Shown here: positions 5,494 to 52,787 of the stretch, one piece after another
Layout of the letters: the number at the start of each line of letters is the position of its first letter
Numbering within the stretch: position 1 is the stretch's first letter
DNA from: Methanothermobacter sp. MT-2
Lineage (GTDB): Archaea > Methanobacteriota > Methanobacteria > Methanobacteriales > DSM-23052
DNA length: 64,000 nucleotides
Direction: 5' to 3'
NCBI GenBank assembly: GCA_003584625.1
Contig: AP017647.1
Location: 978,603-1,042,602, forward strand
Notes under the pieces: model-generated
The model's input: the letters and a program-made list of their open reading frames with translations, nothing else
Database searches by the model: none
What the model was told of the DNA's origin: nothing
Program-made: the position numbers and the translations under genes

Positions 5494-6099
5494 TTAAATT
5501 GAACTAAGTTGCCATTTTCCTTTCTTGTTAAAGGCTGCTGCTGCGGTTACTGGATGGGTGAATTTGGAAAATTCGCCTTCACCCATTATATATTTGGCTG
5601 CTTCATCTGCATTTTCCGCTTTAAATTTGACTTTTTGGGGTGTTGTATGCTCATATGTGGATATATAGTATGCGCTTCCCTTGGGTACTCTTTGTACTTG
5701 GAGGTCATGGTGGGTTACTATCCCTATATGGCCTTTACCATCGCTTCTTATGGCGCCGGCTATCCGTGGAGTGTTGAGTTCGTCCTTTTCATAATCCATT
5801 GTTAGTAGGGATAGTGCTATCGCATCTCTTATGTTCATGCCTAGGCTTATTTTATCAGCTATCACGTCTGTGTGCGAACCATTGGATACTATTACTGTAT
5901 CATCAACTATTTTTATGCAATTGTATGCAATGTAGGGGTTTTTAAAGACGTCGGTTTCGTGGCCTTCCTTTGGGACTATGGCTATTCTGTCTTCAAATTT
6001 TTTCGCGATCCTATTGGGAAATGATCTGCTCGACACTCTATAAGCAGCGAACACAGTATTATTGCTGCTTCCAACAGCTAATATTCTGCCAAGATACAT
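5494..6099 (-). CDS. purO: IMP cyclohydrolase, archaeal type (PurO)
   Basis: 201 residues. PurO closes the ring of FAICAR to form IMP, the last step of purine synthesis in many archaea that lack the bifunctional PurH. The N terminus [20 protein letters not shown] and [11 protein letters not shown] are typical, as is [14 protein letters not shown]. The start is preceded by GGTGATG. It is the last gene of a probable minus-strand operon that begins near 9720; the 16-bp gap to exbD supports co-transcription, although the functional link is not obvious. Confidence 0.93.
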
Positions 6100-6115
6100 T
6101 TTTCATCACCTAATA

Positions 6116-6511
6116 TTAGGTTGGACTCTTAACGGCTTTATCTGCTGGGAAACCTGGTGGTGTTTGTATGATTATAAGACCTTCTCTTGGTTTTATTATT
6201 ATTTCACCTTCATCTAATACGCGCGTGTGAACTGCTATTGCACTGTTTTTTATGTACTCTGATTTGTCCATACCATTAACTGTAACCTTTTTCAGCCCCG
6301 CTACGGGGATTAGATAATATTCTGAGGGTCCTAGGCTTTCGCTCGGCTCTGGTTTGCCTGATGGGGATCCTCCTTCATTAGTTCCGTGAAATGTGCTTGT
6401 GATAACGAGGAAAATGAGGAGTGTGAATAGTATGTCTATAAATGGGACTAGGTTGAAGCGTGGGTTGGTTCCTTTGATTTTTCTTTTATATCTTTCAATG
6501 TCGATGGCCAA
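6116..6511 (-). CDS. exbD: ExbD/TolR-family biopolymer transport protein
   Basis: 131 residues. A short cytoplasmic N terminus is followed by one membrane helix (FNLVPFIDILFTLLIFLVIT) with the conserved aspartate of the ExbD/TolR proton channel (FIDILF), then an extracytoplasmic domain. I chose the TTG at 6509-6511 because AGGTGG (complement of 6517-6522) lies at the right distance; a GTG at 6520 would fall inside that site. It directly follows exbB. In bacteria such pairs use proton flow to energise TonB or Tol; archaea have no known TonB, so the partner here is unknown. Confidence 0.85.
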   Translation of the reverse strand: MAIDIERYKRKIKGTNPRFNLVPFIDILFTLLIFLVITSTFHGTNEGGSPSGKPEPSESLGPSEYYLIPVAGLKKVTVNGMDKSEYIKNSAIAVHTRVLDEGEIIIKPREGLIIIQTPPGFPADKAVKSPT

Positions 6512-6520
6512 ATTTTCCAC

Positions 6521-7360
6521 CTATTGTTTTAGTTTGCTTTCGATTATATCGGCGCTTTTGTTGCATCTTTCGAGTATTATGTTGTTTATGCTCTTTTCTA
6601 GCATGCTGGGTTTGAAGGCTACTTGCATGTTTGCTTCGGGTTCGTTGATAGGTTTGACGTTAACTATGCCTTCTGATTCTCTGAGTGCTTCCATCACATT
6701 TTTGAGGTTTCCTTCTACTTTGATTTTCATGACTGCGTAGTTCCAGTTTGTCATCTTTTTTATGAGTTCTATTTTATCTATTTCAGCTTCTATTCTGCTT
6801 GATATGTATGAGTAGAATGGTAATAATACTATGGCGACTGCGAGGCCTGCTATGGTTGTTATTAGGGCTATGTAGATTCCCTGGGCCATGGCTGTGGGGT
6901 TGGCGTTGACTCCGAGGACTTTAAAGGTGTGCCATATTCCTATCACGGTACCTATGAGACCTAGGAGTGGTGAGATTTCGATTATTGTTTTGAGCGTGCC
7001 AAGGCCTCGGGTCATGTGGCTCATTTCTACGATGAAAACTCTTTCCATGGCGTCTTCGACTTCTGCCTTGTTCCTGTAGCCTATTTTGAGGGCTTCTGAG
7101 ATTATCTTTGATATTGGATTTTGGTATTGTCCTATGGCTCTGAGGGCTTCTAGTGCTCCTCCTTTTTCCATGGATTTGTTGACTATTCCTATTATCTCTG
7201 GTGTGCTGATGCGTGAGATTTTTCTTAGGTAGTATATTTTTTCTATGCCGAGTATTAGACCATATATTCCGATGATTGCTATGACGTAGGTGATTATGCC
7301 TCCGCTTTTGAACATTTCTAATATGGTTGTGATGAAATTTAGTATTGGTTCTGTGATCAA
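6521..7360 (-). CDS. exbB: MotA/TolQ/ExbB-family proton channel protein
   Basis: 279 residues, TTG start at 7360 with a run of G ahead of it. There is one N-terminal membrane helix (residues about 18-36), a cytoplasmic loop, and two further helices; the core GLIGTVIGIWHTF and the stretch TTIAGLAVAIVLLPFY match the ExbB/TolQ family. It lies 9 bp upstream of exbD. Together they should form an ion-driven stator-like complex in the cytoplasmic membrane. A C-terminal extension of about 70 residues beyond the last helix is longer than in many ExbB proteins. Confidence 0.87.
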   Translation of the reverse strand: MITEPILNFITTILEMFKSGGIITYVIAIIGIYGLILGIEKIYYLRKISRISTPEIIGIVNKSMEKGGALEALRAIGQYQNPISKIISEALKIGYRNKAEVEDAMERVFIVEMSHMTRGLGTLKTIIEISPLLGLIGTVIGIWHTFKVLGVNANPTAMAQGIYIALITTIAGLAVAIVLLPFYSYISSRIEAEIDKIELIKKMTNWNYAVMKIKVEGNLKNVMEALRESEGIVNVKPINEPEANMQVAFKPSMLEKSINNIILERCNKSADIIESKLKQ

Positions 7361-8015: not shown

Positions 8016-9083
8016 TTATTTCATGGCTTTTAGTCTTACTTCTGGTTCTAGTGCTCTTGGTTCGGCTGCTACTATGGCAGCGCCCTTGGCTACTACGGTC
8101 ATGGGGTCGTCTGATACTTCGGCTGATATGCCTACTTCTTCGTAGATTCTTTCTTTAAGTCCTCTTAGTAGGGATGTGCCTCCTACTAGTATTGTTTTGT
8201 TGTATACTCCTGATATGAGTTCGGGTGATAGTCTTTCAAGGACTTTTGAGAGGGCTTCTATTACTTTCAGGATTACGGGTTCTGCTGCATCCGCGACTAG
8301 TTTTGAGTCTATTTCAACTTCTTTGGGTTTGTTTGTATTCATGCATTTTCCTATTACTGTGGTTTTTTCGTTTTCGAATTCGGCTTGTGAGTGGACCATG
8401 CCGACTTCGATTTTGGCCTTTTCGGCTTCGTGTAATCCGATTTCGACTTCATGTTTTTGTTTAACTAGTTCGACTATGTTTTCGTCTATGTCGTCGCCGC
8501 CAACACGTACTGTTTCAATGTCTGTTATACCTCCGAGTGATATGACGACGATGTCACTTGATCCTGCTCCGATGTCGATGACCATTGTACCTGATGCTTC
8601 TGCGATTGGTAATCCGGCGCCTATTGCTGCTGCAAGACCTTCGCTTATAACTAGTACGTACTTTATACCGGCTCTTCTGCCTATTTCTTCAACTGCGTTC
8701 CTTTCAACCTCTGAGGCGTTACCTGGTATGCCTATAACTATTCTTTCGACTGATGATATGTCACCAGCACCCATTTCTATCGCATGGATAATAAGAGCCT
8801 CTGCTTGGGCCACGCTTTCCACAACACCCTTTCTAAGGGGTCTTACAGCTATTATGTCTTCTGGTGTTCTGCCGAGCATCTTTTTCGCTTCTTCACCCAC
8901 TGCCAGGACATAGGATGGGTCGTCTTTTTTAACCGCGACCACTGATGGTATTTTATAAATGTCAAATTTATCCCCTGATGGCTTGGCTATCACAGTGTTT
9001 AACGTTCCCAGGTCTATACCAAGGGTGTCAGTTAGTGTTTTGGTCTCTTTTTCCTTTTTTTCCTTTTTTCCCAATGAAAACAT
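8016..9083 (-). CDS. mreB: MreB-like actin-family ATPase
   Basis: 355 residues. An actin/Hsp70-fold protein with phosphate-1 motif LGIDLGTLNTVIAK, connect and phosphate-2 region IDIGAGSSDIVVISLGG, and adenosine motif ILVGGTSLLRGL. It is close to bacterial MreB in length. MreB-like proteins are found in pseudomurein-walled methanogens, where a shape or wall-assembly role is plausible but not proven. Its N terminus has a Lys/Glu-rich extension (about 17 residues). AGGAGGATTAGA precedes the ATG. It overlaps no gene but is 1 bp from the unknown gene upstream, so they are coupled. Confidence 0.85.
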   Translation of the reverse strand: MFSLGKKEKKEKETKTLTDTLGIDLGTLNTVIAKPSGDKFDIYKIPSVVAVKKDDPSYVLAVGEEAKKMLGRTPEDIIAVRPLRKGVVESVAQAEALIIHAIEMGAGDISSVERIVIGIPGNASEVERNAVEEIGRRAGIKYVLVISEGLAAAIGAGLPIAEASGTMVIDIGAGSSDIVVISLGGITDIETVRVGGDDIDENIVELVKQKHEVEIGLHEAEKAKIEVGMVHSQAEFENEKTTVIGKCMNTNKPKEVEIDSKLVADAAEPVILKVIEALSKVLERLSPELISGVYNKTILVGGTSLLRGLKERIYEEVGISAEVSDDPMTVVAKGAAIVAAEPRALEPEVRLKAMK

Positions 9084-9848: not shown

Positions 9849-10538
9849 ATGCTTGTAGAGGGGTTTTCGAAAAAAGTTTACATAATTTTAACCTTATCCA
9901 TGCTCCTATTTCTCTTAGGATATTATATTATAACCTTCATCACCCTATCATTTCTAGCATTTATAATACAATTTTTCAGAGACCCTCAACGAAAAACACC
10001 AAACTCTAATAATATAATAGTGGCAGCGGCTGATGGACGGATACTATCAGGGAAGATAGACAAGATAAAAATGGTAGACTCATCTTATCCCTTATTGGAT
10101 GCCATAACCGAGGATGCTGAGGCCATCCTTGTAAGTACATTCATGTCACCCTTTGATGTGCACGTTAACAGGGCCCCTATCACAGGGAAGGTTGTCCATA
10201 CCAGTTACTATCCTGGAAAGTTTAAAATAGCGAAAGGTAAAGTTTTAACAGAGAATGAGAAAAACTTAATCGTCATAGAAGGTGAAAATGGTAGGGTAGG
10301 TATCATCCAGATAGCAGGTTTCATAGCTAGGAGAATAATCCAATATGTAAATGTGGGTGAAACAGTGAAGATCGGCACCCGCATAGGTATGATCCGCTTC
10401 GGGTCTAGAGTAGATCTTATAATACCAAAGGATTGTGAAGTCTTAGTCAATATTGGATCAAAGCCCAAGGCTGGGGAGACAATAATAGCACGTTTCCCCA
10501 CCAGGGGGATGGGAGAATTAGAGGATGAAAAACACTAG
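9849..10538 (+). CDS. asd: Archaetidylserine decarboxylase (phosphatidylserine decarboxylase family)
   Basis: 229 residues. This membrane enzyme converts archaetidylserine to archaetidylethanolamine. Two hydrophobic segments occupy residues about 11-40. The conserved FMSPFDVHVNRAP region and the self-cleavage triplet in RFGSRVDLI (Ser becomes the pyruvoyl group) are visible; archaeal and short bacterial versions use GS rather than the long LGST form. The start follows GGTGATGCG. It overlaps the next gene, archaetidylserine synthase, by 14 bp, so substrate synthesis and decarboxylation are co-expressed. Confidence 0.92.
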   Translation: MLVEGFSKKVYIILTLSMLLFLLGYYIITFITLSFLAFIIQFFRDPQRKTPNSNNIIVAAADGRILSGKIDKIKMVDSSYPLLDAITEDAEAILVSTFMSPFDVHVNRAPITGKVVHTSYYPGKFKIAKGKVLTENEKNLIVIEGENGRVGIIQIAGFIARRIIQYVNVGETVKIGTRIGMIRFGSRVDLIIPKDCEVLVNIGSKPKAGETIIARFPTRGMGELEDEKH

Positions 10539-11196
10539 ATATAAGATACAATACTATATAGGTGTCCCAGACCTGTTCTCAATTATAAACGCTTCCCTCG
10601 GGTTCCTGTCAATAATAATGATATTAAAGGGTGGTTTAGCGGTTGCCTGCCAGTTCATGTTACTCGCAATAATCTTTGATTCCATTGATGGGTGGATTGC
10701 CCGTAGAATAAAAAGAAGAGATGATGAAGGTTTTGGGAAGAATGTTGACTCACTCTCAGATATTATCTCATTTGGTGTGGCACCAGCTCTTCTTATATAT
10801 TCCATAACAAGTTTTCGATACATTAATATATTAGTTAGTCTCCTAATAGTGACATGTGGGATATTAAGGCTTTCAAGATTCAATGTAATCACAGATATCA
10901 AAAGTGATAAGTTCATTGGCTTGCCAATACCAGTAATGGCAGCTATTGTCTCATCAATATACCTAAGCAGCATATTCAATGAACACACCATCCTCCTAAT
11001 AGTAACATTAACATCACTTATAATGATAAGTTCCATCGAATATCCGAAGATCAAAGCAAAAAACGGTGCAATAGTGGTTATACTACTGATACTCACAATA
11101 CTAAAACTCAAAATATTCGCTATGATACTCTTCCTCATGCTCATAGCATACATAGCAATCCCATTCATCCTAATAATCAAAAGGGATACAAAATGA
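10525..11196 (+). CDS. pssA: Archaetidylserine synthase (CDP-alcohol phosphotransferase)
   Basis: 223 residues with multiple membrane helices. It exchanges CMP in CDP-archaeol for L-serine. The CDP-alcohol phosphotransferase signature is visible as DGWIARR, followed by a spacer and GKNVDSLSD, supplying the metal-binding aspartates. It is embedded between asd (14-bp overlap) and the DUF515-type gene (4-bp overlap). Family members differ in alcohol used; serine is inferred from the asd neighbour and from similarity to the short serine-specific type. Confidence 0.9.
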   Translation: MKNTRYKIQYYIGVPDLFSIINASLGFLSIIMILKGGLAVACQFMLLAIIFDSIDGWIARRIKRRDDEGFGKNVDSLSDIISFGVAPALLIYSITSFRYINILVSLLIVTCGILRLSRFNVITDIKSDKFIGLPIPVMAAIVSSIYLSSIFNEHTILLIVTLTSLIMISSIEYPKIKAKNGAIVVILLILTILKLKIFAMILFLMLIAYIAIPFILIIKRDTK

Positions 11197-12500
11197 TAGA
11201 TAAATTAAAGGGCAACAACAATAATAATAAGCCCCCAGACCTTCGGAAAAAGAGGGATAACCCAGATATCATAGGAAGAGTGAAAAATCTCGTGGATAAA
11301 CTTACAGGCACCGAGAAAAAACCAGGGGAGAAACCAAAAAAGAGACCCATGCCAAGACCCCGACTGAGGGTGGGGAAAAAAGAAGAAAAACCAAGATTAA
11401 AAGTGCCCAAGAGAACACCCGAAAAAACACCCGGCCTAACACCACCACCAAGAAAACCCCCAGGGAGGGGTATCCGTCCAAAAATCCCGGAAGAAGACCA
11501 GCGCACACTCGTGGGAGCCATAGTCTTTGGTTTAATAATAATCATTATCGTTGCAACAGGATATTATTTTCTAGTATATCAACCATACCATGAAACCCTA
11601 CAAAGCGCCAAATCCGAGAAACTATCTGAAGTGAACGCATACTTCAAGGGGCCGCTTGCCACAGACCCGCAAAAACAGGCCATACTCGCCGAGATAGATA
11701 GTGGAACAACACCAGAAGAAGTATTGGCAGTTGACGTCCTCGGACCCGCTACTAAATCCTGGCGTAAATACCAGACCCAAGAGATCAAGACAAAAAAGGA
11801 CAAATTCAACAGGGTCATGGTAGTATATAATATGACAGACACTGGAAGCCAACCAGAGTCGAAGAGGGTTATAATGAAGGTGTCTGATGCGCAGAAACTC
11901 GTGAATGAGGCGGATGCAACAGTATTAGCCAATATGGTTATCCAAACCCCAGACACAGTTGCAGTTCCCATTATGATCTCAAGATTACAAGCAGCCGGCG
12001 GACTTATAGGCGTCGGTAGCATGGTAGACGTATACCTCAACATAAACCAGACAGGTAATAATACCACTAGCACTCCACAAGAGACCACTCCTAGGATAAG
12101 CGGAGCCACTGTACTCGCAATCCTCAGAGCAAAGGACAGCGGCTCTGTAGATGCTAGTATCCTAAGATCTCAGAATATTTCAGTGAATACTATGGGCTCT
12201 GGGATGTCAGTGGAGAAAAGAACAACTACTGATGTTGAACAGCTTCTCAGGGCGGCTGCGGCTGGTGGTTTGAGTGAAGAGGATATTAGAGCCATCCTAC
12301 AAAACTATGGTATAAGATTGTCTGATTATGAGAGGGCTGCGAATCTCGGGGAACTTGACGCCACATACCTTATAATATTAGAGGTGCCAAGGGACGATGT
12401 ACCATTCCTGATACAGAACATGAATAATATAGTATTAACTGTACCGACACAAAACGGGCCTGAGTGGATGATTCGCGAATTACATAGAATTTATGGATAA
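11193..12500 (+). CDS. DUF515-type single-pass membrane protein
   Basis: 435 residues. A basic, proline-rich cytoplasmic N terminus (residues about 1-105, with runs of Asn, Lys and Pro) is followed by one strong membrane helix (GLIIIIIVATGYYFLVYQPY) and a large extracytoplasmic domain. This architecture matches the DUF515 family, which as far as I know is restricted to Methanobacteriales. Function unknown. The start overlaps the lipid synthase gene by 4 bp, placing it in an envelope operon. The extracytoplasmic part has helical content (for example DVEQLLRAAAAGGLSEEDI) and no catalytic motif I recognise. Confidence 0.7.
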   Translation: MIDKLKGNNNNNKPPDLRKKRDNPDIIGRVKNLVDKLTGTEKKPGEKPKKRPMPRPRLRVGKKEEKPRLKVPKRTPEKTPGLTPPPRKPPGRGIRPKIPEEDQRTLVGAIVFGLIIIIIVATGYYFLVYQPYHETLQSAKSEKLSEVNAYFKGPLATDPQKQAILAEIDSGTTPEEVLAVDVLGPATKSWRKYQTQEIKTKKDKFNRVMVVYNMTDTGSQPESKRVIMKVSDAQKLVNEADATVLANMVIQTPDTVAVPIMISRLQAAGGLIGVGSMVDVYLNINQTGNNTTSTPQETTPRISGATVLAILRAKDSGSVDASILRSQNISVNTMGSGMSVEKRTTTDVEQLLRAAAAGGLSEEDIRAILQNYGIRLSDYERAANLGELDATYLIILEVPRDDVPFLIQNMNNIVLTVPTQNGPEWMIRELHRIYG

Positions 12501-12526
12501 AAAATTGGATATTGGAGGTTTGGAAT

Positions 12527-13483
12527 ATGGGTAGATTAAAGTATATTTTGCTGATTGGATTGATTGCAATTTTTTTATTTTCGATATTCGCCACATCCGA
12601 AACCGGCTTTGCTCAAGAAAATAAAACAGGTGCAGAAACTTGGGTTAATCATACCAAAGCCAGCTTAAAAATGGATAGCCTATGGGTGATCATAACAGTG
12701 ACAGTGAAGAACAAGGCTGATAGACCCTACTATTTCAAGATAGGACAAGCATACCATGATCATCTTATGGAAAATGAGACGATAAAATGGGTTATTGAGT
12801 GGACTGATCCACAGGCTGTGAAAATGGCCAAGTCAAGATTCCCTGAACTAGGCGGAGACTATGGATGGGAAATAGACCCAGGCCAAACAAGGACTGTCTC
12901 ATTCAAACTAAGGGCAACAGGCCCACTCGGCGACGAACTCAGTTACATTAGTCGAGCGGGAGAGGACCCAACTTATTATTGGCCTCTTGTGAGTGAACCA
13001 GGTCTTTATACTTCATGGTTCTTCCCTAATGAGCTTGAAACATTAAACACTGATCTTGATATTTTGAATTGGACTGGAAAATTTGGATTCAGCCTTTATA
13101 ATGTTGATTATGAGCCAGTTTATGGTATAGTCAGGGCGCCTATTGTACCATCAAATTCAAAGCTCATCTACAGCGATCCAAAGGCCACTTTCATTGACTA
13201 TGAGTCTGTTCCAGGGGCTTATGTTGCGGCATGGGATGTTGCAATGCCGGGACGGAGCTATTCAAACTTTGAATACACTTATCAATGGCCTGCTGGAGGA
13301 GAGGAAGGTTACAGTTACTATGGCACGCCTCTTAAGTCCAATTTTAGCGCTGCTGCTGGGGAATACCCTGGTGGTAATAAGACCACTACTGTTCCTAGTG
13401 GAAAGACTGGGGCTCCATGGGGTCCATTTGTAGTAGGTGCCCTGGTTACGGTAGCTGCCATAGCATATACGAGGTTACGTTAA
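12527..13483 (+). CDS. Secreted, C-terminally anchored protein of unknown function; candidate sortase substrate
   Basis: 318 residues. The ATG at 12527 has GGAGG (12514-12518) eight bases upstream; a TTG at 12512 overlaps that site. A signal peptide (LLIGLIAIFLFSIFATSETGFA) is followed by a beta-rich domain beginning TWVNHTKASLKMDSLWVIITV, which resembles surface beta-sandwich modules. The C terminus is a hydrophilic linker, then TGAPWGP, a membrane helix and RLR. That TG-x-P plus helix plus basic tail resembles the end of the large adhesin at 44.5 kb. The sortase gene follows 34 bp later, so it is the prime candidate partner. No enzyme motif seen. Confidence 0.75.
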   Translation: MGRLKYILLIGLIAIFLFSIFATSETGFAQENKTGAETWVNHTKASLKMDSLWVIITVTVKNKADRPYYFKIGQAYHDHLMENETIKWVIEWTDPQAVKMAKSRFPELGGDYGWEIDPGQTRTVSFKLRATGPLGDELSYISRAGEDPTYYWPLVSEPGLYTSWFFPNELETLNTDLDILNWTGKFGFSLYNVDYEPVYGIVRAPIVPSNSKLIYSDPKATFIDYESVPGAYVAAWDVAMPGRSYSNFEYTYQWPAGGEEGYSYYGTPLKSNFSAAAGEYPGGNKTTTVPSGKTGAPWGPFVVGALVTVAAIAYTRLR

Positions 13484-13517
13484 CATTCCCCATTTTTTCC
13501 TTTTTTTGGTGGAGACT

Positions 13518-14258
13518 ATGAGGATATCAACAATTTTAGTAATAATTGGCATGTTCATATTATCTCTTTATGCACTTATAGAAGTGAGTTTTTATGCTTC
13601 TGAGGTTAACATAGAACAGAAAGAGCCTAATGTTCCTATTGTTGAGATCCCTAGTATCAATTTGACTAAGGAGATTAATAATAAGTCTGTTTTTTATGGT
13701 GTTTATCATGAGCCCAGGTCGTTTAAGCCCGGGAATGGTACTGTCATCCTTTTCGGTCATAGGACTATGTATGGGTCTCCATTTTTCAAATTGGATAAAT
13801 TGAAGAAGGGTGATAAAGTTTATCTTAATTGGCCTGGGATTGGGAAGGCTGAGTATATTGTTAATAGGTCTTTTACTGTTCCTGCCTCTTATCAGATATC
13901 TATATATCAGGGTGAGAAGTTGTTTCTTATCACTTGTCATCCTATTGGTTCCATGAGTGAAAGATTGATAGTTGAATGCGATCTTGTGAAGATTTATCCA
14001 TTCCAGGAAAATTTGAAGGTGGAAAATCCTAAAAGGTATTATGCGCTTCTTATAATCGTAGCCTTTCTTGGTGGGGGGCTTCTGATTACTAGGATTTATC
14101 CTGTAGAGGAGGATAGGAAGTTTATCTTAATTGCTACTGTAGCTTTAACAATCTTCTTATTATTTGGTTATCTTTTCCCCACACCTCCAGAGTTTATATC
14201 AGGAAAACTTGAGGAGTTAAGTAATATAATGGGATTCTATGGAGGATATCTTGTATGA
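13518..14258 (+). CDS. Sortase-family cysteine transpeptidase
   Basis: 246 residues. ATG at 13518 with GGTGGA upstream (13508-13513). One N-terminal membrane helix, then the sortase beta-barrel: catalytic His in FGHRTMYGSPFFKL, catalytic Cys in LFLITCHPIG and Arg in SERLIVECDL. After the barrel come two further hydrophobic segments near residues 175-195 and 205-225, so the enzyme has three membrane segments, unlike single-helix class A enzymes. Sortases join C-terminal sorting signals of surface proteins to the wall or to each other; the wall target in pseudomurein archaea is unproven. It overlaps mptD by 4 bp. Confidence 0.87.
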   Translation: MRISTILVIIGMFILSLYALIEVSFYASEVNIEQKEPNVPIVEIPSINLTKEINNKSVFYGVYHEPRSFKPGNGTVILFGHRTMYGSPFFKLDKLKKGDKVYLNWPGIGKAEYIVNRSFTVPASYQISIYQGEKLFLITCHPIGSMSERLIVECDLVKIYPFQENLKVENPKRYYALLIIVAFLGGGLLITRIYPVEEDRKFILIATVALTIFLLFGYLFPTPPEFISGKLEELSNIMGFYGGYLV

Positions 14259-14641
14259 GTAGCCTAGATGAATATTTTAAGTGTCTTTCTGATAGGGAGA
14301 GGGCTGTCTTTGAGGGTGCTATAAGTATGGGTGCTCTCTTCCATCAATTCATAGGCACCCCAGTTAATAAAGAGACTATATATTCACTTAAAACTGCTAT
14401 GGAGGATTCTATAAAGCTTCAACCTAGTATAGAGGATGTTAAAGTTGAAATAGATTTAGATGATGTTGAAAGCGGGTTTGGTTATGTTTCCCTCGAGGGT
14501 AAAATGTTAAATGTTAAAATAACCTCAAGGTTTAAGGATGTTAAGGCTATTATAAGGATGGAATACATTGATGAACTCAACTATCCCCTTATCTATGTGG
14601 AGGATGTGAAAGAAGACAAAAAAATTATAAAAGGCCAATAG
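14255..14641 (+). CDS. mptD: Dihydroneopterin aldolase, archaeal (MptD, DUF381)
   Basis: 128 residues. MptD cleaves 7,8-dihydroneopterin to 6-hydroxymethyl-dihydropterin and glycolaldehyde in tetrahydromethanopterin synthesis. The signature RERAVFEGAISMGALFHQF and GTPVNKET matches the MJ1585/DUF381 family, unrelated to bacterial FolB. The gene starts inside the sortase stop (4-bp overlap) although the functions differ, so co-transcription may be coincidental. After its stop, 14645-14668 has an A-tract and a T-tract that could end transcription before korD. Confidence 0.85.
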   Translation: MSSLDEYFKCLSDRERAVFEGAISMGALFHQFIGTPVNKETIYSLKTAMEDSIKLQPSIEDVKVEIDLDDVESGFGYVSLEGKMLNVKITSRFKDVKAIIRMEYIDELNYPLIYVEDVKEDKKIIKGQ

Positions 14642-44517: not shown

Positions 44518-47500
44518 TTAAATTTTCTTTGAAACTGCGAATCCGCCGATAATCGACAGCACCGCAAGCAACATTAAATATAATGGAGTTCCTGTTGGCT
44601 GCATTGGAATTTCACCTGGCTTTGGCGGTTTAGGCGGTCCTGGCATTACCTTTATCGTCACAGAAGCCTCGTTATTACTTGGATCTGGATCATAAACATC
44701 ACTTGTAACAACAGCCACATTAGTTATAGTGGTGTTAGTTACTATGACCCTTGCTATGATCTGGAGACTTGCCACAGCACCACTTGCAAGATCGCCAAGA
44801 GTCCAGACACCAGTTCCACTATTATAAGTTCCTTGAGATGCTAAAGCACCCACGAATTGTAAACCTGCTGGTAACAAGTCAGAGACTCTAACATTCGTTG
44901 CAGCATCCGGTCCATTGTTTGTAACAGTTAAAGTGAATTTAACAGTGTCCAAGTAATTAACCACTGTCTGGTTAGCAACTTTAATGATGGCAAGATCTGC
45001 TGCCGCTGGCACAGTGATAGTCACATTAGCTCTGTTGTTGCTCATGTCTGGATCGTATATGTCGCTTGAAACATTCGCCACATTATCTATGCTGGTGTTG
45101 CTTGCCACAACCTTGGCTATGATCTCAAGACTTGTAATCGCACCGTTTGCTAACTCGCCAATGGTCCAAATACCACTCGTACTATTATAATCTGTACTGT
45201 TTGCACTCACGAATTGTAAACCTGCTGGTAACAAGTCAGAGACTCTAACATTCGTTGCAGCATCCGGTCCATTGTTTGTAACAGTTAAAGTGAATTTAAC
45301 AGTGTCCAAGTAATTAACCACTGTCTGGTTAGCAACTTTAATGATGGCAAGATCTGCTGCCGCTGGCACAAGTATTGTGGCATTTGCGTGGTTATTTTCT
45401 GTGTTGTTGTCAAATTCGTTGGTTTTTGTTACAGTAACTAGGTTGGTTATTGTTGTGTTGGAAGCTACGACTCTTGCTATGATATCAAGGCTTGCGTTTT
45501 CACCTTGAGCTAGGCTTTCGATTATCCATTCAGCGCCGTTTATTGTTGTGTAAATTCCTGTGGATGCTGTTGCTGATATCATTTCCAAGCCGGGTGGTAA
45601 TGGGTCGACTAGTGTTATTCCGGTTGAGTTGTCTGGTCCGAGGTTTGTGACTGTTATTGTGAATTTAACTGTGTTGTTATAGTTTACTGTTGTTGCGTTG
45701 CTTGTTTTTTCAACTTTTATGTCTGTTACTGGTAGTGTTGTTAGTGCGAATGTTGCGTTGTTGTCTCCTGTGAATGGGTCATATGCGTCGCCTGTAACAG
45801 AGGCCATGTTGAAGAATGTGCCTGAACTGATTGCTTTGACGATGATGTCTAATGTTGCTGTTTCAAATGCTTCTAGATCGCCTATGGACCATGTGTCGGT
45901 GTTATTGTTGTAAGTTCCGTGGGATGTTGTCGCGTTTAGGAATTTTAGGCCGGCTGGCATTAGGTCTGTGACTATAACTCCTGTGTTGTTGTCTGGTCCT
46001 GCGTTGTAGACTTTTATTGTGTATGTGGAGTTTTGGCCGTTGTATATTATTGATGGGGTTGCTGTTTTTGTGATTCTGAGGTCTGATGTTTTTGGGGCGT
46101 TGACTCCTGCTATTGCACGGTTGTTTGTCATGTCTGGGTCGAATTCGTCTCCTGTGACTTCCGCAACATTTATTATGCTTTCAGTGGTGTTTACAAGGAC
46201 TGTGAAGTTTAATGTGGCTGATGAGCCTGCGTTGAGCGCGCCAACCATCCATATACATGCTAGTGGGTAGCATGTTCCCTGGGATGTTTGGTGGCTTTGA
46301 TAGATGAGGCCATCAGGTAATTTGTCTTCTAGGATTATGTTGGTTGCATTGTCTGGTCCAAGGTTTGTTACGGTGATTCTGAATGTTACTTCGTCTCCAT
46401 AGTTTGGTGTGGAATTGTCAACTGTTTTTATGACCTTGATATCTGCTGATGGGTTAACTTTTAATATTACGCTTGCATTGTTATCTGATGGGTCAGGGTC
46501 GAATTCTGATGCTGTGACGTTCACTATATTTGTGGATATTCCAGTTTTTGTTGAGAGGATCTCTATTGCGAGTGTTGCATATTTGTATGGTGCTAGTGTT
46601 CCTATGAGCCATTCTCCACTGGTAGTGTTGAATGTTCCCTGGGATGGTAGGTAGGATATTATTGAAAGGCTTGATGGTATTAGATCTGTGGCTGTTACAT
46701 TTGTGGCTGTGTTTGGACCGTTATTTGTTACTGTTATCCTGAATATTGTTGATTCTCCGTTATTTATTGGTGTCTTGTCAACTGTTTTTGCGATTGCTAC
46801 ATCAGCAACCGCCCCAACATTTAAAGCGGCCAAAGCGTTATTGTTTGTTGTGTCAGGGTCGTTTTCGGCACCTGAAACTGATACATAGTTTATGATTCCA
46901 CCTGTTTGGTTAACGATGGCTGTGATGTTTAATATGGCGCTTTCAAGGTAATTGAGTGGTCCGATGATCCAAAGACCTGTGATTGGATCGTATGTGCCCT
47001 TGGATGGTGTGGTGTTTTGTATTATTAGTCCGGTTGGTGGCAGGTCTGTTGCAACTACATTGGTGGCGTTATCTGGTCCAAGGTTTGTAACAGTTACTGT
47101 GAATTTTACAAGGTTTCCGAAGTTGGGATTTGTATCATTGACAGTTTTTATGACGCTGAGATCTGCTGATGGTTTAACTTCGATTGTTAAAGCAGCTACA
47201 TTATCCTCGTGTACAGGATCCGGCAGTTCTGATGTTACAGATACTATGTTTGTTTTGTATCCTGGTTGAAGTGCTTTAATGACCATTGTGAGTGTTGCTG
47301 ATTCTAGTGGCGCTAGTGTTCCAACATTCCAAGTGTTTGTAGTAAGGTTATATGCGCCCTGTGATGGGTTTAATTCAATTATTGAGATTCCTGTTGGCAG
47401 TAGATCTGTTACCGTTATGTTTGTTGGGGTGTTCGGACCTGTATTATAGACTGTTATGGTGATTATTGTTGTCTCACCATTGTTTATGATCATTTTATCT

Positions 47501-49680
47501 GCGGTTTTGGTGATCCCGAGATCTGCACTGACACTGTTTAAGGTTGATATTGCATTATTGTTTGTAATGTCAGGGTCAAATTCATTTCCTTGGACGAACA
47601 CTGTATTATTTGAAGCTCCAGTCTTGTTAACGAATACTGTGATGTTTAGGAAGGCTGTGTCAAGATAATTAAGGGTGCCTATACTCCAAATACCAGTTGT
47701 AGTGTTGTAGGTGCCCTGTGAGGCGCTATGACTTTGATAGATTAGGCCTTCTGAGAGGATATCTGTGACTGTGATCCCTGTTGCATTGCTTGGACCGAGG
47801 TTTGTGACGGCAACTCTGAATGTTACGGTGTCCCCAAGGTTTGGAGTGGAATTAGTCACTGTTTTAACTATTCGAAGATCTGCTACGGGTTTTGGATTAA
47901 TGTCCACGGTTGCATTATTGTTTCCAGGGTTTGGATCGAAGTTTGTTGATGTTACATTTGCTTTGTTGGTTATGATGCCTGTTGTGTCCACCTTTGCGAG
48001 TATGGTCATTGTTGCTGTTGCGAGGTAATTGAGGGTGCCCACATTCCAGATGCCAGTTAGAGGATTATATATGCCCTGGGATGGTGTTGCAACTTGGAGT
48101 ATTAACCCTGCTGGTAATAGATCTTCCACAATAACGTTGGGTGCATTCACTGGCCCTCCATTATAGACTGTTATCGTGTAGAGTATGTTTTCTCCGATGT
48201 ATGGTTCTGGTTTGTCTACTGTCTTTGCAATGCTCAGGTCGGATGCTGGTGGAGAATTTAAGGTTGCCGTGGCATTATTATTCACAGGGTTGGGATCTGT
48301 AACATTACTTGTAATATTGGCCTTGTTGATTATGATGCCTGTTTGGTTTACGCGGGCTGTGATGTTTAATGTTGCTATTTCAAGGTAATTGAGGGTGCCC
48401 ACGTTCCATATACCTGTAAGTTGATTGTAGGTTCCCTTGGATGGTGTGGCGTTCTGGAATATCAAGCCGTTTGGTAGTAGGTCTTCTACTATGACTCCTG
48501 TTGCATTGTTTGGCCCGTAATTTGTTATTGTGATTGTGAAGTTTATGAGTTCGTTGAGGTTAGGCGCGGTATTATTCACGGCCTTTGTTATAGCTAAGTC
48601 TGCAAGTATTAGTGCTGTTATTGTTATGTTTTTACCATAGTCTCCGTTGTAGTGGAAGCTTGAACCGCTTTGATCTGTTATAATACCATATAGTGGTGTT
48701 GTCCCGGTTCCTATGACCTTGAAGTACCATACTGAGACTAAGTTTGTTGACCCTGGATTGTCCAAGCGTATGTTATTGCTTGTGCCTGTGGTATAAGTTG
48801 TTGTAAGGTTTAATGGTTGTAGTATGGTTGAGTTGTAGGCAAGTGGCAAGTTAACAATATTATATTGTGATGCTGTACTTGATACCATGGTAATGGTTAT
48901 TATATCTCCAATGGCTGGTGTGGTGTTACTTGCTGTTATGCTGATTATGTTATTACGGTTTTGTGATACTAGTTTTTCCACGTATAGGTTGCCTGTTATT
49001 GTGTCTGTTGGCGTGTTTGTCCCGGCGACTGTTACCGTATAATTTCTTGATGTGAAATATGCTGCGTTTGTTCTTGTTATTTCTATGAGGTAGAATGCGT
49101 CTATTGTTGCCCCGGGTGGTATGTCTCCAATGCTCTTTGTTGCAGTTTCACCTGGTGCAAGGTTTATATATGTATTGTTTGTTGTCCATGTGAGATTGGC
49201 TGTTACGTTATTTGCTGTTGTCAGGGCATTATTGGTTATTCTTATTTGTATTAGGTATTGGTTTGGGCCCTGGTTTACGTTGTTGCTGTCTAGGCCTATT
49301 GTGTCCCATGATCCTTTTGTTAGTGTGAGTGTTCCGAGTTGGAAGTTTATTGTGGCTGAGCGGGTTTCATCTAGGCTTATGGTTTGTGTTGGTATTATGT
49401 GGCCTGGTGCTATCGCAGAAATGATTAGAGTGTTATCTTCTGAGTAAAATGATAGGTTATAGTTTCCGTTTTGGTCTGTGATGTTTGATGTTATAGTCGA
49501 TCCTTGGGGTGTTTTCACATCTATTATGGCTCCTTGGAATGGTTCTGTACTGTTACAGTAGGTTACTGTTCCACTGATTAGAGTGTTGGGTTCTGTTTGA
49601 TTGTCTGCTGCATTTACTGTTCCAATGGCTAAGAAAAGTAGTAGTGAGATTGTGATGGCTAGTTTTCTAATTATGTTCAC
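44518..49680 (-). CDS. Giant DUF11-repeat surface adhesin with sortase-like C terminus
   Basis: 1720 residues. Signal peptide (LAITISLLLFLAIGTVNA), then a CnaB/carboxypeptidase-regulatory-like domain (TVTYCNSTEPFQGAIIDV; TITDQNGNY-like), a middle domain with cohesin-like character (VVSVWYFKV region), and eleven DUF11 repeats of about 119 residues, each starting D(L/I/V)xIxKT and containing NxGPxxATxVxVxDLLPxGL. The end is PGPPKPPKPG, IPMQPTGTP, one membrane helix and KKI. Repeats 10 and 11 share a perfect 163-bp stretch. Annotated start is GTG 49680; however GGGTGA lies such that ATT at 49669-49671 is also plausible. Highly Asn/Thr-rich, with many possible N-glycosylation sites. Likely wall-attached. 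Confidence 0.88.
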   Translation of the reverse strand: MNIIRKLAITISLLLFLAIGTVNAADNQTEPNTLISGTVTYCNSTEPFQGAIIDVKTPQGSTITSNITDQNGNYNLSFYSEDNTLIISAIAPGHIIPTQTISLDETRSATINFQLGTLTLTKGSWDTIGLDSNNVNQGPNQYLIQIRITNNALTTANNVTANLTWTTNNTYINLAPGETATKSIGDIPPGATIDAFYLIEITRTNAAYFTSRNYTVTVAGTNTPTDTITGNLYVEKLVSQNRNNIISITASNTTPAIGDIITITMVSSTASQYNIVNLPLAYNSTILQPLNLTTTYTTGTSNNIRLDNPGSTNLVSVWYFKVIGTGTTPLYGIITDQSGSSFHYNGDYGKNITITALILADLAITKAVNNTAPNLNELINFTITITNYGPNNATGVIVEDLLPNGLIFQNATPSKGTYNQLTGIWNVGTLNYLEIATLNITARVNQTGIIINKANITSNVTDPNPVNNNATATLNSPPASDLSIAKTVDKPEPYIGENILYTITVYNGGPVNAPNVIVEDLLPAGLILQVATPSQGIYNPLTGIWNVGTLNYLATATMTILAKVDTTGIITNKANVTSTNFDPNPGNNNATVDINPKPVADLRIVKTVTNSTPNLGDTVTFRVAVTNLGPSNATGITVTDILSEGLIYQSHSASQGTYNTTTGIWSIGTLNYLDTAFLNITVFVNKTGASNNTVFVQGNEFDPDITNNNAISTLNSVSADLGITKTADKMIINNGETTIITITVYNTGPNTPTNITVTDLLPTGISIIELNPSQGAYNLTTNTWNVGTLAPLESATLTMVIKALQPGYKTNIVSVTSELPDPVHEDNVAALTIEVKPSADLSVIKTVNDTNPNFGNLVKFTVTVTNLGPDNATNVVATDLPPTGLIIQNTTPSKGTYDPITGLWIIGPLNYLESAILNITAIVNQTGGIINYVSVSGAENDPDTTNNNALAALNVGAVADVAIAKTVDKTPINNGESTIFRITVTNNGPNTATNVTATDLIPSSLSIISYLPSQGTFNTTSGEWLIGTLAPYKYATLAIEILSTKTGISTNIVNVTASEFDPDPSDNNASVILKVNPSADIKVIKTVDNSTPNYGDEVTFRITVTNLGPDNATNIILEDKLPDGLIYQSHQTSQGTCYPLACIWMVGALNAGSSATLNFTVLVNTTESIINVAEVTGDEFDPDMTNNRAIAGVNAPKTSDLRITKTATPSIIYNGQNSTYTIKVYNAGPDNNTGVIVTDLMPAGLKFLNATTSHGTYNNNTDTWSIGDLEAFETATLDIIVKAISSGTFFNMASVTGDAYDPFTGDNNATFALTTLPVTDIKVEKTSNATTVNYNNTVKFTITVTNLGPDNSTGITLVDPLPPGLEMISATASTGIYTTINGAEWIIESLAQGENASLDIIARVVASNTTITNLVTVTKTNEFDNNTENNHANATILVPAAADLAIIKVANQTVVNYLDTVKFTLTVTNNGPDAATNVRVSDLLPAGLQFVSANSTDYNSTSGIWTIGELANGAITSLEIIAKVVASNTSIDNVANVSSDIYDPDMSNNRANVTITVPAAADLAIIKVANQTVVNYLDTVKFTLTVTNNGPDAATNVRVSDLLPAGLQFVGALASQGTYNSGTGVWTLGDLASGAVASLQIIARVIVTNTTITNVAVVTSDVYDPDPSNNEASVTIKVMPGPPKPPKPGEIPMQPTGTPLYLMLLAVLSIIGGFAVSKKI
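44851..45013 (+). repeat. 163-bp perfect direct repeat, copy 1 (within DUF11 repeat 11)
   Basis: Identical base for base to 45208-45370, offset 357 bp = 119 codons, exactly one DUF11 unit. Confidence 0.97.
45208..45370 (+). repeat. 163-bp perfect direct repeat, copy 2 (within DUF11 repeat 10)
   Basis: Identical to 44851-45013. Identity stops abruptly at both ends although the encoded units remain homologous, which points to recent conversion or duplication. Confidence 0.97.
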
Positions 49681-51190: not shown

Positions 51191-51224
51191 AGTTTTTTTC
51201 TAATAAGTGGCTAATGGTGTTAAC

Positions 51225-52787
51225 ATGAAAAAAGCATTGTATCTGACTGTTTTCATAACAAGCCTTTTAATACTTATCAGCAACGCCTCAGCAGCCCAAT
51301 TATCATACAACGAAATCTCAAACGCCTCAAAAATAATAACAGACCAAGCCTCAAAAACAGGCCAAATACCATCCCAAATCACAGTAAACAACAAAAACAT
51401 CACCCTAGACGACTACCTATACGCCGCAAGCACCACCACAATAAACCTAAACACCAACAAAAAAACAAACATAAGCACCAACAACTACAAACCACCAACA
51501 AACCCCCCAAACAACACAGCAACCGGAAAACTCACAAAAACAACATACCTACAGGTAGCACAAAACATCAAAAAATACATGGAAACCAATGGAAGATCAC
51601 CCAGCTATGCCACCACAACAATAGGAAAAATAAACTATCAAAGCCTGATCTACACCTACGCCAAAATAATAAACTTCTACAACACCAACGGAAGACTACC
51701 AAATTACGTAACGGTAAAAGGTGTGAAAATTGTATCGTCGGATGTTGTGGGGAATCCTTCAACGCCTTCAACGGGTAAAACACCAAGTGATGTGTGGAAT
51801 CTGTTGATAAATGGTAATTCCACGGCCAGGGATGTTTTAGATGTTGCGAGTGATGTTATTATTTTTATAGAGGAGCAGGGTAAGGTCCCGGAAACTGTGA
51901 AACTTTCCGATAAATTGACAGTTAACCCAGGCCAATTCCTCTATCTTGCAAGTCAAATGATATTATACTTAGATAATCTTACAAGTTCTGATACGAGTAA
52001 AGCATTGCAGGCAGCAAACAATTATAACAGTTTCATTGAAGAACTTAAAACTATGGCCACAACTAGGATAAACCCGGCGCCAAGTCCTGTGAATGGGGTT
52101 GCTATGGGTGAATTAACAAGGGCTGATTATATTGATCTTGCCAAGAGACTGAGAACCTTCATCAAAACTTATGGGAGACTTCCAAATCTTGTCACCAGCC
52201 CGATAGGTAACCTAGGATGCGATTTTTTATTATTGGAGTTTTCAAAGGTTCTGAGTTCGTACAGAGGGAATGGTACATTACCGGCTGGTATTGAGACTTA
52301 TTCAGACATTTTCAAATTTGAAACACCAGTTATAGCAGGTTATCTAGGCGCTTATAATATACAAGTGACCTCAGATTATGTGAAAGCTACTGGAAAGTGC
52401 AGTTGCGGGTCAAAGAGTTATTCCAATTATTATACAAGTGCATTTGTTAATTATTGTCCATGTTGTGGCAGATATGGGACATTGGCTTTCGAACAGGGTG
52501 GAGCAGCAGACGGTAATTATGAGGGTATGTGGTATTGCACCTATTGTGATGCTGATTATTGTCTAGCTTGTGGAAAAATACATGTCAGTGGGAAAAACAT
52601 GTTTTTAACTCCATACACCCTAGAAGGATTAAGGGGCAGCTCTTCAGATGTTATTACAATGAAATATAATTACAAGGTTTTCAGGATTTTCCAAGATTCC
52701 TACGCATACAAGGATATATATTCAAAGGTGGATGATTCGTATACGATGGTCAAATATGTCAATGGAACTATCTTCAGGTTTTATTGA
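51225..52787 (+). CDS. Secreted pseudomurein-binding-repeat protein with C-terminal Cys-rich domain
   Basis: 520 residues. Signal peptide ([22 protein letters not shown]) is followed by four pseudomurein-binding-type repeats, seen as [42 protein letters not shown] and [12 protein letters not shown]. The C-terminal ~110 residues contain paired Cys: CSCG, CPCCG, CTYC and CLACGK, like two zinc ribbons, in place of a transglutaminase-type protease domain. There is no catalytic Cys-His-Asp triad as in the gene at 59.3 kb. An outside-facing zinc or disulphide domain is unusual. Start ATG 51225 (the GTG at 51207 is upstream of the likely start). Codon use flips at about 51,715 from C/A-rich to G/T-rich. 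T-rich 52786-52805 could be the terminator. Confidence 0.85.

Follow-up and report, generated by a model that had tools for sequence, protein, structure and literature searches.

A sortase and its candidate C-terminal sorting signal in pseudomurein archaea

Pseudomurein archaea appear to display surface proteins by means of a sortase-based system, in which proteins would be cleaved at a T-G bond and probably anchored to the wall, a reading to which we give roughly three chances in four. The evidence, all of it read from sequence, consists of a sortase with an intact catalytic triad, a set of protein tails, the consensus of these tails and the joint presence and absence of enzyme and tail across genera. 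Since this C-terminal tag (M-Q/K-x-T-G-x-P) and the enzyme come and go together in related archaea, the tag is probably the cutting site of the sortase, and the system as a whole most likely serves the covalent anchoring of surface proteins. From the same data we infer cleavage between T and G, transpeptidation and the identity of the acceptor. In the proposed pathway, (i) surface proteins with an N-terminal signal peptide would leave the cell through Sec, (ii) a C-terminal tail, composed of [M/L]-[Q/K/A]-x-T-G-[AVIL]-P, a stretch of about 15 hydrophobic residues and then K/R, would keep them in the membrane, (iii) Cys144 of the membrane-bound sortase, with the assistance of His85 and Arg153, would attack the T-G bond and form a thioester and (iv) the protein would be handed to an amino group of the envelope, for which a pseudomurein peptide is the first guess. 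DUF11 and beta-helix adhesins would be the variable cargo of this machinery.

The window, that is, the whole stretch of 64,000 nucleotides of Methanothermobacter sp. MT-2 that was analysed (contig AP017647.1, positions 978,603 to 1,042,602), contains the following features.

8016-9083, minus strand: MreB-like actin, divergent neighbour (cluster C of PMC11915815; synteny)
9849-10538, plus strand: archaetidylserine decarboxylase, operon neighbour (TIGR00164, 252.5 bits, above cut-off)
10525-11196, plus strand: archaetidylserine synthase of the pssA type, operon neighbour (NF038087, 273.8 bits, above cut-off)
11193-12500, plus strand: CpaB/RcpC-like protein (weak TIGR03177 match, E 3e-5; synteny)
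12512-13483, plus strand: secreted protein with a signal peptide and a beta-rich conserved body, candidate sortase substrate (orthologue alignment)
13388-13477, plus strand: C-terminal sorting-like signal of this small protein (tail profile, genome C1:991990-992079, E 1.6e-11)
13506-14258, plus strand: sortase of the long type, about 250 aa (PF04203, E 7.4e-19; invariant triad; predicted fold)
14255-14641, plus strand: dihydroneopterin aldolase of the MptD type (PF04038, E 8.9e-38; synteny)
44518-49680, minus strand: 1720-aa DUF11-repeat surface protein with a signal peptide, candidate sortase substrate (11 DUF11 stretches)
44524-44610, minus strand: C-terminal sorting-like signal of the DUF11 protein (tail profile, genome C1:1023126-1023212, E 1.1e-13)
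51207-52787, plus strand: protein with pseudomurein-binding repeats but no sorting tail (four stretches matching PF09373, E 1.2e-34), which suggests a wall of the pseudomurein type

The sortase and its neighbourhood

By sequence and model comparison, the product of the gene at 13506-14258, which starts with a TTG codon at 13506, is a genuine sortase with predicted transpeptidase activity. It scores 68.2 bits against PF04203 (curated cut-off 26.6) and is laid out as an N-terminal helix, a sortase domain carrying His85, Cys144 and Arg153, and two hydrophobic C-terminal helices. An earlier note on this DNA had read the catalytic residues as the Cys of LITCHP, the His of FGHRT and the Arg of SERL, and both the open reading frame and the motifs (GHRT, LITC and ERLI) were borne out. 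The three residues are invariant in an alignment of 15-17 divergent orthologues with identities down to 37-38%, and they align with the motifs of 8t28, a class C sortase whose structure has been determined. In Foldseek, the AlphaFold2 model (pLDDT 83) retrieves sortases C1, E and A with a probability of 1.00 and E values of ~1e-10. Among the NCBIfam class models (C, D, E, F and GN), the enzyme lies below every cut-off, with a best score of 40 bits against 160 for class C, and 35 bits against 160 for class E.

The genome encodes a second, shorter sortase (~196 aa; L003, 6439-7026, at C1:136.6 kb) that the earlier note missed, which comes after a mechanosensitive-channel-like gene in an unrelated neighbourhood. 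It is found only in the f1, f2 and f4 genera and some f3 genera. In M. thermautotrophicus (L236) and genome G060 (L232), genes for tailed proteins lie at a distance of 3-6 kb.

The long sortase gene sits in a tight operon, whose genes overlap or are separated by no more than ~25 bases, in the order decarboxylase, synthase, CpaB/RcpC-like, small TGxP protein, sortase and dihydroneopterin aldolase, the last of which shares 4 bases with the end of the sortase gene and is a conserved neighbour. The CpaB/RcpC-like protein has a basic cytoplasmic N-terminus, one TM and an extracellular domain; in most of the loci compared its gene adjoins that of the sortase, and the MreB-like gene is a neighbour in most loci as well. 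A role for CpaB as an obligate sortase partner is weakened by the retention of cpaB in sortase-free Methanosphaera. The long sortase gene is the one listed as 'Sortase E' (OG0001178) in cluster C of pseudomurein archaea, with the same MreB, coiled-coil and CpaB neighbours, a cluster that was considered probably unrelated to pseudomurein synthesis (PMC11915815). Beside mreB, an ExbB/ExbD-like pair and an NTN-type protein (window 5494-7360) are conserved in Methanobacteriales.

The tail signal and the proteins that carry it

The earlier note had proposed that two proteins of the window share a signal made of TG-x-P, a helix and basic residues, and this signal proved to be C-terminal, enriched in secreted proteins and far above chance. 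When the complete 1.52 Mb genome (Methanobacteriales) was searched for such C termini with a profile built from 29 tails, six strong places (E<=5e-11) and a weak seventh (0.0096) were found, the next being at E>2, bearing in mind that the six strong tails, or their duplicate, belonged to the training set of the profile. A DNA pattern for MQ-x-TG-x-P gave 4 matches in the same genome and 0 when reversed, and the matches whose frames were read are all in frame at the C-terminus, ahead of a helix and basic residues.

The sequence examined as a whole yields 59 distinct tails, of which 26 had not been used to train the profile, and their consensus is M-[QK]-x-T-G-[AVIL]-P-[LIVYW]. T and G are present in 59/59 and there is no profile match without TG, though TG served to place the motif; P follows at TG+2 in 56/59. 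Every one of the 59 tails has K/R within its final 5 residues, and the first K/R comes mostly 19-21 residues past the G. The position of the L in LPxTG is taken by M in 36/59 tails and by L in 3/59. Most tails have M-[QK]-x ahead of TG (a feature absent from the earlier note), hence do not conform to a literal LPxTG, and the existing NCBIfam C-terminal models do not match them. We infer that MQxTG corresponds column for column to bacterial LPxTG. The likeness to bacterial sortases A/C/E and their LPxTG/LAxTG signals extends to the sortase domain, the Cys-His-Arg triad, the fold and a three-part signal at the C-terminus that contains T-G and ends in basic residues, whereas the archaeal enzyme adds two C-terminal helices, works in a host without murein and would recognise M-[QK]-x-T-G-h-P, whose P at TG+2 is an unusual feature compared with bacterial signals.

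Sortases have been counted in Methanobacteria before (PMC2812497, PMC3087415), with no substrate signal given, and M. thermautotrophicus was credited with 0 LPxTG proteins despite 2 sortases (PMC2812497). A few LPxTG proteins were reported earlier for Methanobrevibacter and Methanopyrus, M[QK]xTG is absent from the sortase motifs listed in a 2025 survey, and a limited literature search found no paper naming this signal. The sortases were thus known and their substrate signal looks undescribed. This matters because Methanobacteria, which include M. smithii from the human gut and M. ruminantium from the rumen, have had sortases with largely unknown substrates. A defined signal allows likely anchored surface proteins to be listed in any such genome, and opens a test of how archaeal proteins attach to pseudomurein, for which Methanosphaera is a natural sortase-free comparison genus.

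The tailed proteins carry DUF11, beta-helix, VWA or Ig-like domains. Those whose tails were read have the features of a substrate, that is, a signal peptide (judged by eye), the C-terminal pentad, a helix and a basic end, with the exception of an ORF at C1:765.6 kb that has no signal peptide. The largest in the window, the 1720-residue adhesin at 44.5 kb, was located with its tail (MQPTGTP-helix-SKKI) just as the earlier note had claimed, and so was the signal-peptide protein upstream of the sortase (KTGAPWGP-helix-RLR). This small protein, starting at TTG 12512 or ATG 12527, exemplifies a sub-type of tail without MQ (K/E-TG-[AV]-P-[YW]-G) that had not been spotted. Its orthologues, found in 20/152 genomes, keep T-G-[AVIT]-P-[YWI]-G (in one case T-G-A-A-Y-G) beside a freely varying linker, with T-G invariant; its model is weak (pLDDT 57), with no fold match. 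In the older lineages it probably serves the sortase as a conserved, dedicated substrate. Its tail may instead serve the second, short sortase, because the M-Q part is missing and because, in genome G060, its gene lies 5 kb from the short sortase and far from the long one.

Several other proteins deserve mention. One DUF11 ORF (L114, 1091-2275) ends in a perfect MQPTGVP tail but has no signal peptide and is possibly a truncated gene or a recombination cassette. Two 213-aa DUF11 proteins with MQPTGAP tails and identical visible ends (L113, 5503-6144, and L115, 1114-1755; C1:104 kb and C1:1322 kb) are a recent duplication. A repeat protein with a weak tail (MENTGTE-helix-NRKY; L220, genome C1:1371142) is encoded next to a protein resembling pseudomurein-binding-repeat proteins. 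Three giant proteins of Methanobrevibacter or relatives, met only through their nearness to a sortase, end in TG[NI]P tails.

Joint distribution of tail and enzyme

Across 152 Methanobacteria genomes from 20 genera, the sortase is found in 19/20 genera and the tail in the same 19/20, the odd one out being on both counts Methanosphaera (sortase in 0/20 genomes, tail in 0/20). By genome, 101 have both, 23 neither, 9 the tail only (all fragmented or draft) and 19 the sortase only, which gives a Fisher p of 3e-9 when phylogeny is ignored; at the level of genera the comparison is 19/19 vs 0/1 (p = 0.05), the loss in Methanosphaera being one evolutionary event. In 19 genomes that carry the sortase, the profile found no tail at E<=0.1, so that part of Methanobrevibacter may rely on different signals.

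An earlier count had already given 0 sortases for Methanosphaera stadtmanae (PMC2812497). In both Methanosphaera loci read, one of them from M. stadtmanae, the order is pssA-cpaB-DHNA, with the sortase gene missing between the last two. In the 416 kb of M. stadtmanae sampled, giant surface proteins end without a C-terminal hydrophobic helix and no TGxP tail was seen. The Methanosphaera loci (L235, L244) are also without the MreB-like and coiled-coil genes. Methanosphaera are cocci, and a link between this gene absence and cell shape is possible.

Another enzyme that could process such tails is archaeosortase A, which in haloarchaea acts with PGF-CTERM, also a tripartite C-terminal signal, and has a literature link to archaetidylserine synthase and decarboxylase. 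Its fold is unrelated, and it was rejected as the tail-processing enzyme here, there being no PF09721 member in the MT-2 genome; 1/152 genomes has one over the cut-off. The link between sortase and signal that the earlier note had suggested is thus strengthened by their occurrence in the same genera, their joint absence from Methanosphaera and the lack of an archaeosortase in the genome itself.

Competing explanations and the nature of the acceptor

The tail could be a mere membrane anchor of biased composition, with TGxP capping the helix and the sortase acting elsewhere. Tail-anchored adhesins are common. DUF11 (CLIPPER) adhesins such as MTCT_1020 of Methanothermobacter CaT2 share repeat domain and architecture with ours, and the C-terminus of such a protein, a DUF11 aggregation protein of Methanothermobacter, has been taken for a simple membrane anchor (PMC6759345). 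However, the T-G is fixed in 59 tails despite free linkers and helices, as is the spacing to the basic residues, and in the sortase-free genus no TGxP tail was found and the large surface proteins sampled have no hydrophobic tail, which makes this explanation unlikely.

The second question is where the sortase would deliver its substrates. The earlier note had placed it in a lipid/envelope cluster, and its gene does lie, in a conserved arrangement, with those of archaetidylserine synthase and decarboxylase. A functional tie is weakened, though, by genomes with sortase and tails that lack the decarboxylase or both enzymes, and these also speak against an ArtA-like lipid anchor, in which the amino head group of archaetidylethanolamine or archaetidylserine would accept the substrate. 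Such an anchor has attractions: both enzymes making that lipid share the tight operon of the sortase, the small TGxP protein and the decarboxylase occur in almost the same genomes (20 each, the decarboxylase being in only 20/152) and archaetidylethanolamine has been proposed as the nucleophile for haloarchaeal ArtA (PMC7157517). Yet neither lipid enzyme is encoded in the complete genome G060, which contains both sortases as well as four tails, the decarboxylase is missing from Methanobrevibacter in spite of its sortase and tails, Methanosphaera keeps pssA in an operon without sortase, and the overlap with the decarboxylase is explained by shared ancestry. Archaetidylethanolamine is therefore not a general nucleophile here (as an obligate acceptor it was rejected), and the lipid anchor is very unlikely. 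The restricted version, in which the sortase would be a protein-lipid ligase only where the decarboxylase is kept, joining the TGxP substrate to the archaetidylethanolamine of the operon in convergence with the haloarchaeal archaeosortase, is quite unlikely as well.

Finally, the long sortase might act like a class C enzyme and link DUF11 proteins into fibres resembling pili, with wall anchoring secondary. In favour of this are its best NCBIfam score, which is to class C, a tailed protein that scores to a pilin isopeptide domain and another, from a sister genome (L125, 6603-7751), in which VWA is combined with an Ig domain like that of the tip pilin GBS104 and with an MQETGIP tail. The latter protein resembles the tip pilin of sortase-built pili. 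The reading is nevertheless highly improbable, since the score is far under the class C cut-off and the tailed proteins are mostly long single-chain adhesins.
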